Shown here one piece after another: positions 16,077 to 54,742 of a DNA stretch of 64,000 nucleotides. The DNA is from Burkholderiales bacterium 8X. GTDB taxonomy: Bacteria > Pseudomonadota > Gammaproteobacteria > Burkholderiales > Burkholderiaceae_C. Position 1 is the stretch's first letter, and the number at the start of each line of letters is the position of its first letter. Location of the stretch: contig LR732703.1 of NCBI GenBank assembly GCA_902506565.1, forward strand, positions 2,404,125 through 2,468,124. The letters run 5' to 3'. Position numbers and translations under genes: made by a program. A model generated the notes under the pieces. It searched no databases. It saw only the letters and a program-made list of their open reading frames with translations, and was not told the DNA's origin.

Positions 16077-17630
16077 CTAACCTTGTGCGGCCACTTTCTC
16101 CGATTGGCGCTGTAACTTGTTGAGCGCACTCAGATAAGCCTTGGCCGAAGCCACCACGATGTCCGGATCGGCGCCGACCCCGTTCACCACGCGGCCGGCA
16201 TTCTGCAATCTCACCGTCACTTCGCCCTGGCTCTCGGTCGAACCGCTGATCGCGTTGACCGAATACAGGACCATCTCCGCGCCGCTCTTCACCTGCGCCT
16301 CGATCGCCTTGAGCGAAGCGTCGACCGGGCCGTTGCCCTCGGACTCGGCGTGGACCTCCTGCCCTTCCACCGTGAACACGATCCGCGCCCGCGGCCGCTC
16401 GCCGGTCTCGCTGTGCTGCGACAAAGAAACAAACGCAAACTGCTCTGAAACGTGCGACAGCTCTCCGTCGCTGACGAGCGCGAGGATGTCTTCGTCAAAT
16501 ATTTCGCTCTTGCGATCCGCGAGCTCCTTGAAGCGCGAGAAGGCAGCGTTGATGTCCGCCTCGCTTTGCATCGCGACGCCGAGTTCCTGCAGCCGCTGCT
16601 TGAACGCATTGCGGCCGCTCAGCTTGCCGAGCACGATCTTGTTGGCGCTCCAGCCCACGTCCTCCGCACGCATGATCTCGTAGGTGTCGCGGGCCTTGAG
16701 CACGCCGTCCTGGTGAATGCCGGAGGCATGAGCGAAGGCATTGGCACCGACCACGGCCTTGTTCGGCTGCACCACGAAGCCGGTGGTTTGGCTCACCATG
16801 CGGCTCGCGGCGACGATGTGGCGGGTGTCGATCCGCAGGTCGAGGCCGAAGTAGTCCTTGCGGGTCTTGACCGCCATCACGATCTCCTCGAGCGAACAGT
16901 TGCCCGCTCGCTCGCCGAGGCCGTTGATGGTGCATTCGACCTGCCTGGCACCGCCGATCTTCACGCCGGCGAGCGAGTTGGCGACCGCCATGCCGAGATC
17001 GTTGTGGCAATGCACCGACCAGATCGCCTTGTCGCTGTTCGGAATGCGCTCCCGCAGGTTCTTGATGAAATTGCCGTACAGCTCCGGAATCGCATAGCCG
17101 ACCGTGTCCGGCACGTTGATGGTGGTGGCGCCTTCGTCGATGACCTTCTCGATGACCCGGCACAGGAAATCGGGGTCGCTCCGATAGCCGTCCTCGGGGC
17201 TGAACTCGACGTCGCCGATCAGGTTGCGGGCAAACCGTACCGCGAGCTTCGCCTGCTCGAACACCTCGTCGGGGCTCATTCGCAGCTTCTTCTCCATGTG
17301 CAGCGGCGAGGTCGCGATGAAGGTGTGGATGCGGCCTCGCGCTGCGCCCTTCAGCGCCTCGGCCGCGCGGGAGATATCGCGGTCGTTGGCGCGCGAAAGG
17401 CCGCAGACCACCGAATCCTTGATGGCGTCGGCGATCGCCTTCACCGCCTCGAAGTCGCCGTTGGAGCTGGCCGGGAAACCCGCTTCGATCACGTCCACCC
17501 GCAGCCGTTCGAGTTGCTTGGCAATGCGCAGCTTCTCGTCCTTGGTCATCGATGCGCCGGGCGATTGCTCGCCGTCGCGCAAGGTGGTGTCGAAGATGAC
17601 GAGCTGGTCGGACGCTGCGGGGCTGGACAT
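16077..17630 (-). CDS. leuA: 2-isopropylmalate synthase, bacterial-type LeuA
   Basis: Condenses acetyl-CoA with 2-oxoisovalerate, the first step of leucine synthesis. The 517-residue protein begins with the catalytic TIM barrel: [17 protein letters not shown] (metal-binding Arg-Asp), [16 protein letters not shown] with metal histidines near residue 205, and [14 protein letters not shown]-terminal LeuA regulatory domain (about 380-510) gives leucine feedback. This is the family found in E. coli. AAGGAG precedes the ATG. It lies 39 bases after a second leuA of the other family and should share its transcript and attenuator. Having both families in tandem is unusual; one may be specialised for another 2-oxoacid. 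Confidence 0.92.
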
Positions 17631-17669: not shown

Positions 17670-19373
17670 TCAGGCCGCTTCGACCGCCGATTGTGCTTGC
17701 TTTGCGCCCGGCGCCCGGGCCCGCTCGAGACCCGACACGATCGCCTTCAACGACGCGGCGACGATGTTCGCGTCGATGCCCACGCCGAACAGCGTTCGCC
17801 GGTCATCCACTCGAAGCTCCAGATAGGCCACCGCCCGCGCGTCGGCGCCGGCGCCGATCGCATGCTGGTGGTAGTCGATGACGCGGATGGCATGCCCGGT
17901 CGCGCGGGCCAGGCCCTGGATGAAGGCGTCGATCGGGCCGTTGCCCTCGCCCTCGATCTTGATCTCTGCGCCGTCCCACAGCATGTCGGCCTGCAGCACG
18001 ACCGATGCCGAACCACCCTCGCCTCGCTCCTCGATCGCCCGATGGCGCGGCGCCGCCGGGGAATCGAGGCGGTACTCGCCTTCGAAGAGCTGCCAGAGGT
18101 CGCTCGCCACCAGCTCCTTGCCGGCCACGTCCATCACGCGCTGCACCGCCTGGCTGAATTCCATCTGCAGCCGCCGCGGCAACTCGAGCCCGTACTCGCT
18201 TTCGAGCAGGTACGAGATGCCGCCCTTGCCCGATTGGCTGTTGACCCGGATCACCGCTTCGTAGCTGCGGCCGACGTCCTTCGGGTCGATCGGAAGGTAG
18301 GGCATGTCCCAGGCATCGTCCGGCCGGCGCGCGGCGAAGGCCTTCTTGATCGCATCCTGGTGCGAGCCCGAGAACGAGGTGTAGACCAGGTCCCCGACGT
18401 ACGGATGCCGCGGATGCACCGGGATCTGGTTGCAATGCTCGACCACGGTTCGCAGTTCGTCGATATTGGAGAAGTCGAGGTGGGGCGAGACGCCCTGCGT
18501 ATAGAGGTTGAGCGCCACGTTCACGATGTCGAGGTTGCCGGTGCGCTCGCCGTTGCCGAAGAGGCAGCCTTCGATGCGGTCGGCGCCGGCCATCAACGCG
18601 AACTCGCCGGCAGCGGTGCCGGTGCCGCGATCGTTGTGCGGATGAACCGACAACACGATCGAGTCGCGCCGTTCGAGATGTCGGTGCATCCACTCGATCA
18701 TGTCCGCGAAGATGTTCGGCGTCGAATGCTCCACCGTCGAAGGCAGGTTGACGATGCACTTGCGAGAGGGCGTCGGCTGCCACACCGCGGTGACCGCGTC
18801 GACCACCTGCTTGGAAAACGCGAGATCGGTGCCGGAAAACATTTCGGGTGAGTACTGGAAGGTCCAGCGCGTCGTCGGCTGGGCGGCGGCAAGCTCGTTG
18901 AACATGCGTGCATGCGTGGTCGCGAGTTCGACGATCTGGTCCTCGTCCATGCCGAGCACGACCCGCCGCATGATCGGCGCGACGGCGTTGTACAGATGGA
19001 CGATCGCGCGGGGTGCGCCCTGCAGGGCCTCGAAGGTGCGGGCGATCAGCTGGTCGCGAGCGGGCGTCAGCACCTGGATCGTCACATCGTCCGGAATGCG
19101 GTCTTCCTCGATCAGCTTGCGCACGAAGTCGAACTCGACCTGCGACGCGGACGGGAAGCCGACCTCGATCTCCTTGAAGCCGATCGACACCAAGGTCTCG
19201 AACATGCGCATCTTGCGGGCCATGTCCATCGGCTCCACCAGGGCCTGGTTGCCGTCCCGGAGGTCCGTCGACAGCCAGATCGGCGCCTGGGTCAGCACGG
19301 CATCGGGCCAGGTGCGGTCCTTGAGGCCGATGGGCGCGAAGGCGCGGTACTTGCGATCGGGTTGTTGCAACAT
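17670..19373 (-). CDS. leuA: 2-isopropylmalate synthase, yeast/actinobacterial-type LeuA
   Basis: Catalyses the same committed step of leucine synthesis as the gene that follows, but belongs to the longer family known from yeast and actinobacteria. The 567-residue protein starts [20 protein letters not shown]. It then has [15 protein letters not shown] (catalytic barrel, near residue 36), [39 protein letters not shown]-type metal and substrate motifs near residue 240, and a C-terminal regulatory domain (about 430-560). The leader upstream contains a Leu-codon attenuator, direct evidence that leucine controls expression. It is first in a two-gene leuA operon downstream of pssA. Confidence 0.94.
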
Positions 19374-19410
19374 GTGAAGCTCTCTGGTGGTGGGGGTCCA
19401 ACCAGCAACC

Positions 19411-19448
19411 TCAAAACAAACGGCCCGTTGCTGGTGCTAACGGGCCGT
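19411..19448 (-). terminator. Leucine attenuator: rho-independent terminator
   Basis: On the minus strand ACGGCCCGTT (19448-19439) pairs with AACGGGCCGT (19429-19420) around a nine-base loop, and is followed by TTGTTTTGAGG. It lies between the leader peptide stop (19469) and leuA (19373). Its 5' arm carries GCCCGT, which can instead pair with ACGGGC inside the leader peptide gene (19485-19480), giving an antiterminator. The loop and 3' arm can also pair with GTTGCTGGT further downstream (19409-19401). Confidence 0.85.
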
Positions 19449-19468
19449 GTCGAGGAGATGCGCGTGCG

Positions 19469-19522
19469 CTACCTTTTCCGCCCGTGGGGGATCGGTAGTA
19501 GGGCCAGCGAGATCTTGTTCAT
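19469..19522 (-). CDS. leuL: Leucine leader peptide of the leuA attenuator, 17 residues
   Basis: Encodes MNKISLALLPIPHGRKR and a TAG stop. Three leucine codons occur in four positions (CTG GCC CTA CTA); CTA is a rare codon in GC-rich genomes. It starts 28 bases past the pssA stop and ends 20 bases before the terminator hairpin. The Leu codons contain GCCC (19504-19501), which can pair with GGGC in codons 14-15. A ribosome stalled for lack of leucyl-tRNA would cover GCCC and free ACGGGC to block the terminator. This is the classic logic of amino-acid attenuators. The ribosome binding site is weak. Confidence 0.8.
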   Translation of the reverse strand: MNKISLALLPIPHGRKR

Positions 19523-19550
19523 GAGGGTTGCGAATTTAGCACAGCATCCG

Positions 19551-20375
19551 TCAATCGTGTAGACCGCGTTCGTCGGGCTCGTCGGTCGAGATGCTGATCA
19601 CGCTCACCGGCTGCCCCTTGGCACGGCGCCAACCGTAGACGATGTAGCCGCTCAAGCCGTATGCGACGAAGAGACCGAACAGCACCGTTGGCGGATGGAT
19701 GTTGATGACGGCGATGCCGAGCGCGATCAACACGATCACGGCGAAGGGCACGCTCCGCTTCATCTGCACGTCCTTGAAGCTGTAGAACGGCGCATTCGTC
19801 ACCATCGACAACCCGGCATACAGCGTGAAGGCGAAGGTGATCCAGGTGATCTGGTTCCACGACAGGTAGAGCACTTCGCCGCCGCGTCGGCCCCATTCGG
19901 TCATGAGCCAGATGAAGCCCGCCACCAGCGCGGCAGCCGCCGGGGAAGGCAGCCCCTGGAACCAACGCTTGTCGACCACGCCGGTGTTCACGTTGAAGCG
20001 TGCGAGGCGCAGGGCCGCGCAGGCGCAGTAGACGAAAGCGGCGATCCAGCCCCAGCGGCCCAGGCCCTTGAGCGACCATTCGTAGGCGATGAGTGCCGGC
20101 GCCGCACCGAAGGAGACCATGTCCGAGAGCGAATCCATCTGCTCCCCGAAAGCGCTCTGCGTGTTGGTCATGCGGGCCACCCGGCCATCGAGACTGTCGA
20201 GCACCATGGCGGCGAAGACCCCGATCGCGGCGAGATCGAAGCGCGCGTTCATGGCCATCACGATCGAATAGAAGCCGCCGAACAGGGCAGCCAGGGTGAA
20301 CAGGTTGGGCAGGATGTAGATGCCCTTGCGCGGCTTGCGCACCGGCGCGTCGTCCGGGATCGTGTCGTCATGCAT
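19551..20375 (-). CDS. pssA: CDP-diacylglycerol--serine O-phosphatidyltransferase
   Basis: Makes phosphatidylserine, the precursor of phosphatidylethanolamine, at the inner membrane. The 274-residue protein has about seven to eight hydrophobic segments and the CDP-alcohol phosphatidyltransferase signature DSLDGRVAR...GEQMDSLSD (near residues 61-86), with all conserved Asp and Gly residues. It is of the membrane-integrated (Bacillus-like) type. It sits between ilvC and the leuA pair on the same strand; in this group pssA and BCAA genes are often neighbours. A terminator after ilvC suggests pssA has its own promoter in the 99-base gap. Confidence 0.93.
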   Translation of the reverse strand: MHDDTIPDDAPVRKPRKGIYILPNLFTLAALFGGFYSIVMAMNARFDLAAIGVFAAMVLDSLDGRVARMTNTQSAFGEQMDSLSDMVSFGAAPALIAYEWSLKGLGRWGWIAAFVYCACAALRLARFNVNTGVVDKRWFQGLPSPAAAALVAGFIWLMTEWGRRGGEVLYLSWNQITWITFAFTLYAGLSMVTNAPFYSFKDVQMKRSVPFAVIVLIALGIAVINIHPPTVLFGLFVAYGLSGYIVYGWRRAKGQPVSVISISTDEPDERGLHD

Positions 20376-22021: not shown

Positions 22022-22052
22022 GTGGATGCGACGCCTCTTTTCGCCGCCCTCC

Positions 22053-22074
22053 CCCGCGCACGGTAATGCGCGGG
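22053..22074. other. Hairpin in the ilvI-ilvH intercistronic gap
   Basis: CCCGCGCA (22053-22060) pairs with TGCGCGGG (22067-22074) around a six-base loop. It has no T run, so it is not a standard terminator. It could be an mRNA processing or stability element separating large and small subunit expression. Confidence 0.5.
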
Positions 22075-22138
22075 CTCGGCGGGCAATAGATTTGTCTTCG
22101 GGTTGAGGAAACTGGAAAAACGCGAATGCCGCGGGCGA

Positions 22139-54533: not shown

Positions 54534-54627
54534 GACGGGCCTCCCCGCATGGTGAAGTGGCCAACCGGGTCAGGTGGGGAACCAAGCAGCCCTAACTGCG
54601 TAGCCAGTGCCGGGGGTAAGGCTCGTC
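54534..54627 (+). ncRNA. ffs: Bacterial small signal recognition particle RNA (4.5S)
   Basis: RNA core of the signal recognition particle, which binds Ffh and targets nascent membrane proteins. The conserved domain IV appears as GGTCAGGTGGGGAACCAAGC followed by AGCC, with the GGAA-type tetraloop and the internal loops that bind Ffh. The ends pair: GACGGGCC (54534-54541 region) with GGCTCGTC (54620-54627), then CCCCGC with GCCGGGG. The length, about 94 nucleotides, suits the small bacterial class lacking the Alu domain. Position next to the dnaX cluster is common. Exact ends are approximate. Confidence 0.9.
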
Positions 54628-54742
54628 AACCTCATTTCACGCGTCGGCTCGCCATCCGCTCCTTCAAGCGACATTGCCCAAGCCGCCGCTCGATTCAGCA
54701 CCCTTCCAGCGGCCCTGCCGTTACCTTTCCATACAATGGCGC

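Follow-up and report, generated by a model that had tools for sequence, protein, structure and literature searches.

The 64,000-nucleotide stretch of Burkholderiales bacterium 8X analysed here (the window) carries two leuA genes in tandem, and the first is very probably preceded by a ribosome-mediated transcription attenuator that senses leucyl-tRNA. A leucine attenuator had been proposed at this position by an earlier sequence-only reading, and family-wide comparison supports the proposal: the leader peptide, its leucine codons, the terminator and the antiterminator are all conserved. Re-reading of the minus strand showed the coordinates given in that reading for leader, terminator and pairings to be exact. 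A further helix, formed between the terminator loop and a segment past the U tract, had been mentioned as an aside and proves to be one of the strongly covarying features of the element.

Locus and conservation

On the minus strand, the attenuator follows genes which we take to be ilvB, ilvH, ilvC and pssA, with an ilvH RNA before ilvH, and is itself followed by a yeast-type and then a regular leuA. The yeast-type gene (17670-19373, minus strand) encodes a 2-isopropylmalate synthase of 567 aa (HMGL-like, IPMS_D2, LeuA_dimer) and would be the first regulated gene. The regular leuA (16077-17630, minus strand; 517 aa; HMGL-like, HCS_D2, LeuA_dimer) lies downstream in the same direction and may be co-transcribed with it. 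The ilvH RNA (RF02993, 87.5 bits, 22029-22096, minus strand, between ilvB and ilvH) is a cis-regulatory RNA of the same branched-chain cluster in another position, and its model does not match the leuA leader. Elsewhere in the window, a bacterial small SRP RNA (RF00169) lies at 54534-54630 on the plus strand.

The best 80 of 275 yeast-type LeuA relatives, all from named genomes and 76-89% identical, are in their majority from Variovorax, the others including Xenophilus, Pseudacidovorax, Ramlibacter and Hydrogenophaga. Judged by these similarities, the source genome is a relative of Variovorax, and we infer that the family sampled for conservation is the Comamonadaceae. The leader is present upstream of leuA in all 80 named loci.

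An RNA model (R1) built from 49 leaders was searched without reference to leuA. Within the family it matched 157 of 250 genomes at E 1e-4. At the loci fetched from this search, with matches listed down to E 4.2e-6, and from the order-wide one described below, leuA adjoins in 151 of 151 cases (tblastn, both LeuA types): 70 are yeast-type and 80 regular, locus L157 being left out. Twelve of 150 model-found loci share their last 150 nt with a named locus, so that the two sets overlap a little. Across the order, R1 gave matches in 25 of 300 genomes at E 0.01. Besides the window's own locus, 10 loci with E 3.7e-6 or better adjoin leuA; the 16 weaker matches (E 1.6e-4 or worse) were dismissed as noise, since tblastn shows no adjoining leuA, pssA or ilv. 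A broader model (R2), derived from 57 diverse leaders, is found in 100 of 110 family genomes and 99 of 109 genera, with no match at E 1e-5 in the other 10 genomes. Its 18 matches among 399 genomes of the order comprise 11 in the window's family, four from one genus of a second family and three partial matches spanning 34-58 model positions. The device would thus give leucine control in a betaproteobacterial family a concrete RNA basis (100/110 genomes), and a leuA leader with a switchable terminator would very probably confine leucine synthesis to times of shortage.

The leader is found with either type of leuA, and in one genome (G342) with both: one of its two leader copies (L129 and L148) lies before a yeast-type leuA and the other before a regular leuA. 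At locus L139, an apparent relic of the yeast-type leuA N-terminus (MLKQP...), recognized by eye, lies between leader and regular leuA, which suggests gene replacement under a retained leader.

Leader peptide gene and its probable start

The leader gene described by the sequence-only reading is present as claimed: 17 codons, MNKISLALLPIPHGRKR, with ATG at 19522, a TAG stop ending at 19469 (minus strand) and the run CTG GCC CTA CTA. A rule-based parse was applied to 232 sequences, that is, 231 loci and the window; it found a terminator in 231 and a leader ORF in 230. The two failures, L157 (no terminator by the rule) and L216 (no leader found), are absent from the later counts. Leaders are 17 or 18 codons long in 196 of the 230. 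Every one of the 230 contains CTA and 226 have tandem leucine codons, so that a short ORF rich in codons for the regulated amino acid, as expected of an attenuator, is a constant of these loci; the alignment that had been suggested as a check therefore finds peptide and leucine codons conserved. The choice of codon is itself biased: CTA makes up 518 of 1028 leader leucine codons, compared with 1 of 194 leucine codons across six window genes. The CGGG motif of the antiterminator region stands in constant phase to the leader ATG in 178 of 207 leaders, and the stop-to-terminator distances scatter across the three phases (82/75/68).

An extended -10 box, TGTGCTAAATT in the window (19533-19543, minus strand, ending 10 nt before the leader ATG), ends 6-10 nt upstream of the leader ATG in 224 of 225 loci, with the consensus TGTGCTACATT over the 225. 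The figure of 225 out of 230 is partly selected, because the rule used to choose the ATG preferred starts close to a -10 box. The same spacing was found at none of the 231 ATG codons of leuA itself, which served as control. A genome-wide scan for TGTGNTANANT-N4-11-ATG gave a single site, at this leader, and one for the reversed control pattern likewise gave a single site. Moreover, Shine-Dalgarno-like 4-mers (GGAG, GAGG, AGGA) precede 3 of 225 leaders as against 97 of 231 leuA starts under the identical rule; with GAGA and AGAG added, the counts are 28 of 225 and 184 of 231. Sigma-70 promoters have a usual spacing between -10 box and start point and, given the position of the box, the RNA would begin 0-4 nt before the leader ATG. 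The leader gene, which has no Shine-Dalgarno sequence in the window, is therefore probably leaderless, a property that the earlier reading, right about the gene, did not see. No sigma-70 consensus site came out of a promoter scan of the region, which is probably explained by a promoter consisting of an extended -10 box alone.

Terminator and antiterminator

The terminator is as had been described, ACGGCCCGTT-AGCACCAGC-AACGGGCCGT at 19448-19420 followed by TTTGTTTT. Arm 3, ACGGCCCGTT, occupies 19439-19448 and arm 4, AACGGGCCGT, 19420-19429; the U tract, at 19413-19420, has as its first T the last base of arm 4 (all minus strand). The stem is a perfect 10 bp with a 9-nt loop and the hairpin folds to -20.5 kcal/mol. 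A hairpin scanner did not list it because loops were limited to 3-8 nt. The 157-nt leader is more stable than all of 200 shuffles (z -3.1); the 120 nt up to the T tract are less striking (z -2.5, with 3 of 200 shuffles as good). By a rule requiring stem and T run, the intrinsic terminator between leader ORF and first gene is found in 231 of the 232 sequences.

Three mutually exclusive pairings had been drawn, 1:2, 2:3 and 3:4, and all three are present. Region 2, ACGGGC at 19485-19480 (minus strand) within codons 13-15, is the putative antiterminator partner of arm 3. Region 1, GCCCTACTAC (19495-19504, minus strand), includes the leucine codons CTA CTA. The 1:2 hairpin had been given as GCCC with GGGC; CCC does pair with GGG, but this is only part of the helix, since the consensus adds pairing of CUACU of the leucine codons with GGUAG round the stop codon.

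Compensatory change depends on the breadth of the alignment. A first, narrow alignment (49 of 81 sequences) had none in 19 predicted pairs because its sequences are too alike. A wide alignment took 57 of the 65 sequences that survive an 80% similarity filter of 222; eight with misplaced terminators or odd or long leaders (L062, L133, L205, L225, L226, L235, L240, L248) were left out by eye. On these 57 sequences, 94% of terminator cells are paired and 5 of 10 pairs show two-sided change. The strongest changes lie just outside the core that the terminator shares with region 2 (C-G to A-U in 18 of 57, G-C to A-U in 4 of 57), and the terminator core, obliged to pair with both region 2 and arm 4, is nearly invariant. 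For 2:3, 92.7% of cells are paired, with one core pair in 57 of 57. Two-sided change is confined to one pair, a number reached by 240 of 500 shuffles; it amounts to 4 cells, which 1 of 500 shuffles reaches. This end pair varies as a pair should. Eight loci have C as the last base of arm 3, and in 6 of them region 2 carries G (by eye, at least two of these, L231 and L247, are close relatives); a final T, the state of 204 loci, is accompanied in region 2 by A in 154 and by G in 8. Both arms of the switch, which it had been suggested to examine for such changes, are thus conserved across the family, with compensatory change on the wide alignment at five pairs of the terminator and one of the antiterminator.

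Folding was compared in several ribosome states, masking the nucleotides covered. In the window transcript before arm 4 is made, 6.1 pairs of 2:3 are expected with a ribosome at the last CTA against 0.6 without a ribosome and, by the masking itself, 0 with a ribosome at the stop codon. Among 196 distinct leaders, at least three 2:3 pairs are expected in 117 with a stalled ribosome, in 29 without a ribosome and, again by masking, in none with one at the stop. In equilibrium folding, the terminator is the preferred structure in each ribosome state examined, the stalled-ribosome mask included, so that antitermination must be kinetic. In energy, 2:3 is unremarkable (29 of 173 at the 5% level of shuffles or better) and 1:2 moderate (61 of 189). 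The case for 2:3 as antiterminator would rest instead on position, conservation and the end pair: the segment excludes the terminator, would be covered by a ribosome at the stop codon and free when one stalls at the leucine codons, has an invariant core and covaries at its end.

A helix that straddles the terminator

A fourth pairing, between ACCAGCAAC (segment 4', 19435-19427: the loop of the terminator plus 3 nt at the start of its 3' arm) and GTTGCTGGT (region 5, 19409-19401, past the U tract; both minus strand), had been noted as merely possible. It is real and recurs in many covarying versions, which is more than the status of an aside. Over 205 distinct pairs of 4' and region 5, the mean duplex energy is -15.0 kcal/mol, and -10.8 when region 5 is borrowed from loci whose loop differs; 171 of the 205 beat at least 95% of shuffles and 83 at least 95% of such swaps. 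When loci are grouped by loop class, 7 of 10 named classes pair best with what lies downstream in their own loci. In the three exceptions, ACCTGCAGC, ATCCGCA and AACCCGCA, a related class is an equal or better partner, and the mixed class of other loops shows little partner specificity. Counting each distinct loop once, 51 of 74 outscore 95% or more of their shuffles, compared with 2 of 56 control terminators; the controls came from the window, from 27 named loci and from L270-L299, and were picked by a T rule that was a little stricter. Among 120 distinct combinations (energy -11 or better), 11 of 14 positions have at least two kinds of Watson-Crick pair: one position, for instance, has A-T in 52 and G-C in 48, another A-T in 55, C-G in 42 and T-A in 7. 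This table, chosen by best duplex, is biased if taken alone.

Region 5 begins 5-31 nt past the terminator (median 11.5). Exact matches of at least 7 nt occur at 129 of 149 loci with a yeast-type leuA and at 38 of 77 with a regular one, so that the helix appears weak or lost in part of the family. Two other pairings were noticed by eye. A CAACC just downstream of region 5 in many Variovorax loci might pair with region 5, and a TGCAT near the T tract at five loci (L053, L068, L143, L160, L161) could pair with the loop TGCA besides the region 5 helix.

The helix could nest with 2:3 and could form an H-type pseudoknot with 3:4. Region 5 is made after the termination point and hence cannot influence termination by the same polymerase. 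Two functions were tried and rejected. The helix does not look like a second terminator: T makes up 0.30 of the 8 nt that follow region 5, compared with 0.28 of the interval, and five or more T occur in just 20 of 201. Control of the leuA ribosome site finds no support in folding: masking region 5 changes predicted access by a mean of +0.006 over 178 loci (more than 0.1 in 21), and a control mask in the same test by +0.027 in 98. This leaves an effect on the read-through mRNA, or base pairing between that mRNA and terminated RNA acting in trans. We favour the first, a post-transcriptional function exerted in cis through mRNA stability, protection or processing, though with low confidence.

Proposed mechanism and alternatives

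Judging by the promoter, transcription would start at the leader ATG or a few bases away from it, so that ribosomes would load on a leaderless leader gene. When leucine is plentiful, the ribosome would reach the stop codon and cover region 2; 3:4 would form and polymerase would stop at the U tract. When leucine is short, the ribosome would stall at the rare CTA CTA, and region 2 would pair with arm 3 before arm 4 exists, allowing transcription to proceed into the first leuA and then the second. In the absence of translation, the 1:2 hairpin would leave arm 3 free for the terminator. The read-through RNA would gain region 5, whose partner would be the terminator loop together with the opening bases of arm 4. 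Since this helix fits both states, nested with 2:3 and pseudoknotted with 3:4, it would mark the full-length leuA mRNA.

It is tempting to extend this attenuator to a five-segment switch, in which 1:2, 2:3 and 3:4 are joined by a 4':5 pseudoknot that straddles the terminator, distinguishes full-length from terminated RNA and superimposes post-transcriptional control (stability, processing or trans pairing) as a second layer; the whole would belong, as one branch, to a family of leaderless attenuators spread across the order. This wider proposal is tentative, and we regard it as somewhat doubtful. A covarying helix here sits where a classical attenuator has no use for one, and makes the fate of an RNA that has passed a terminator directly testable.

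Other explanations share part of this evidence. In the simplest, the hairpin would be an ordinary terminator insulating leuA from ilv-pssA upstream of it, and the short ORF would be incidental; the terminator is indeed perfect and lies downstream of co-directional genes. An insulator does not, however, account for a conserved promoter box between pssA and the ORF, for CTA in 230 of 230 leaders or for the co-variation of region 2 with arm 3 at the end pair, which together make this explanation extremely improbable. It is scarcely more credible that translation of the leader controls translation of leuA, a mode suggested for the actinobacterial LEU element, or acts via Rho, with the hairpin secondary. 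Such control would suit the other families of the order, where 18 of 28 leuA loci have a leaderless leucine leader and one of these 18 a hairpin with an unbroken T run. Here, however, the terminator is strong and covarying, and predicted access to the leuA start is left unchanged when region 5 is masked (mean +0.006).

A third possibility adds to attenuation rather than replacing it: the terminated leader RNA might also be a trans-acting sRNA, its loop 4' binding region 5 of the leuA mRNA. Loop and region 5 covary, as this would require, and rnTrpL of Sinorhizobium offers a precedent for a trans-acting attenuator RNA (PMC7298713). Against it, the same loop present in cis in the full-length leuA mRNA should outcompete an RNA in trans, and the genome contains 30 exact GGTTGCTGGT sites and 15 of the reversed control sequence. 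We consider such an additional role unlikely, though it has better prospects than either of the two preceding explanations. Attenuation by leader translation thus stays the preferred reading for the element itself.

Relation to known systems

Attenuation by leader peptides is textbook knowledge. As in the amino-acid attenuators of other Gram-negative bacteria (trp, his and enterobacterial leu), the element has codons for the end product, mutually exclusive pairings and an intrinsic terminator before biosynthetic genes; unlike them, it has a probably leaderless leader and an extra helix past the U tract. The E. coli leu leader has 28 aa with 4 leucines (PMC6123439).

Leaderless leader peptides are likewise known. 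In S. meliloti, the 14-aa trpL leader peptide is leaderless and rnTrpL acts in trans on trpDC (PMC7298713); that system differs from the present one in its amino acid (tryptophan), its class (Alphaproteobacteria), the length of its leader and a trans target that is another operon. Leaderless leuL1 of Streptomyces lividans stands before leuA and is described as having no typical terminator (PMC8079986). For the LEU element of Actinobacteria, a pseudoknot has been proposed whose base stem pairs leucine codons with the leuA Shine-Dalgarno sequence (PMC1262725). A leucine-rich leader before leuA, here only probably leaderless, and a proposed pseudoknot are common to both systems; in contrast, a terminator is present here (231 of 232 sequences) and covaries, and the extra pairing straddles it.

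Rfam (release 15) gave no family match over 19300-19600 at E up to 10. Among the literature matches listed, judged by titles and the beginnings of abstracts, there was no description of a betaproteobacterial leuA leader peptide; a prediction in the survey of Vitreschak et al. 2004 is possible. The element adds a probable case of leaderless attenuation outside the Alphaproteobacteria and Actinobacteria.

Leaders in other families and before other genes

Twenty-eight leuA loci of other Burkholderiales families (L272-L299) were inspected, three of them truncated or odd under the rule. In 18 of the 28, a leucine-rich leader ORF of 22-35 codons has a TAnnnT box 4-11 nt before its ATG; 0.5 such leaders are expected from shuffles of the same stretches and none was found in their reverse complements. 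By eye, 15 of the 18 have LLR near the end. A terminator-like hairpin follows in six of the 18 by a loose rule, with an unbroken T run only at L275, and in nine of the 18, C accounts for 38% or more of the 40 nt that follow the stop codon, a raw count with no background control. A Rho-type attenuator is conceivable for these leaders. Taken together, these sequences suggest that the leaderless leucine leader predates the family, its termination module differing between lineages, which would place the present element within an order-wide family. Three of the longer leaders, and one aromatic leader, matched no peptide family in NCBIfam or Pfam.

A similar attenuator design occurs before a DAHP synthase gene at three loci, L268, L269 and L301, the last in the window's own genome (contig C1, about 4047400); at L268 and L301 the gene was assigned by TIGR00034 (aroFGH). 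By analogy, such an attenuator would sense aromatic amino acids. At L301, a TACATT box lies 8 nt before the ATG of the leader MSLRAVFYFSYFWFPNSGGREASA; the leader at L269 is MQTQRAYFFYFWFSPPAAER. The DAHP synthase leaders are followed by a GC-rich terminator with a T run.
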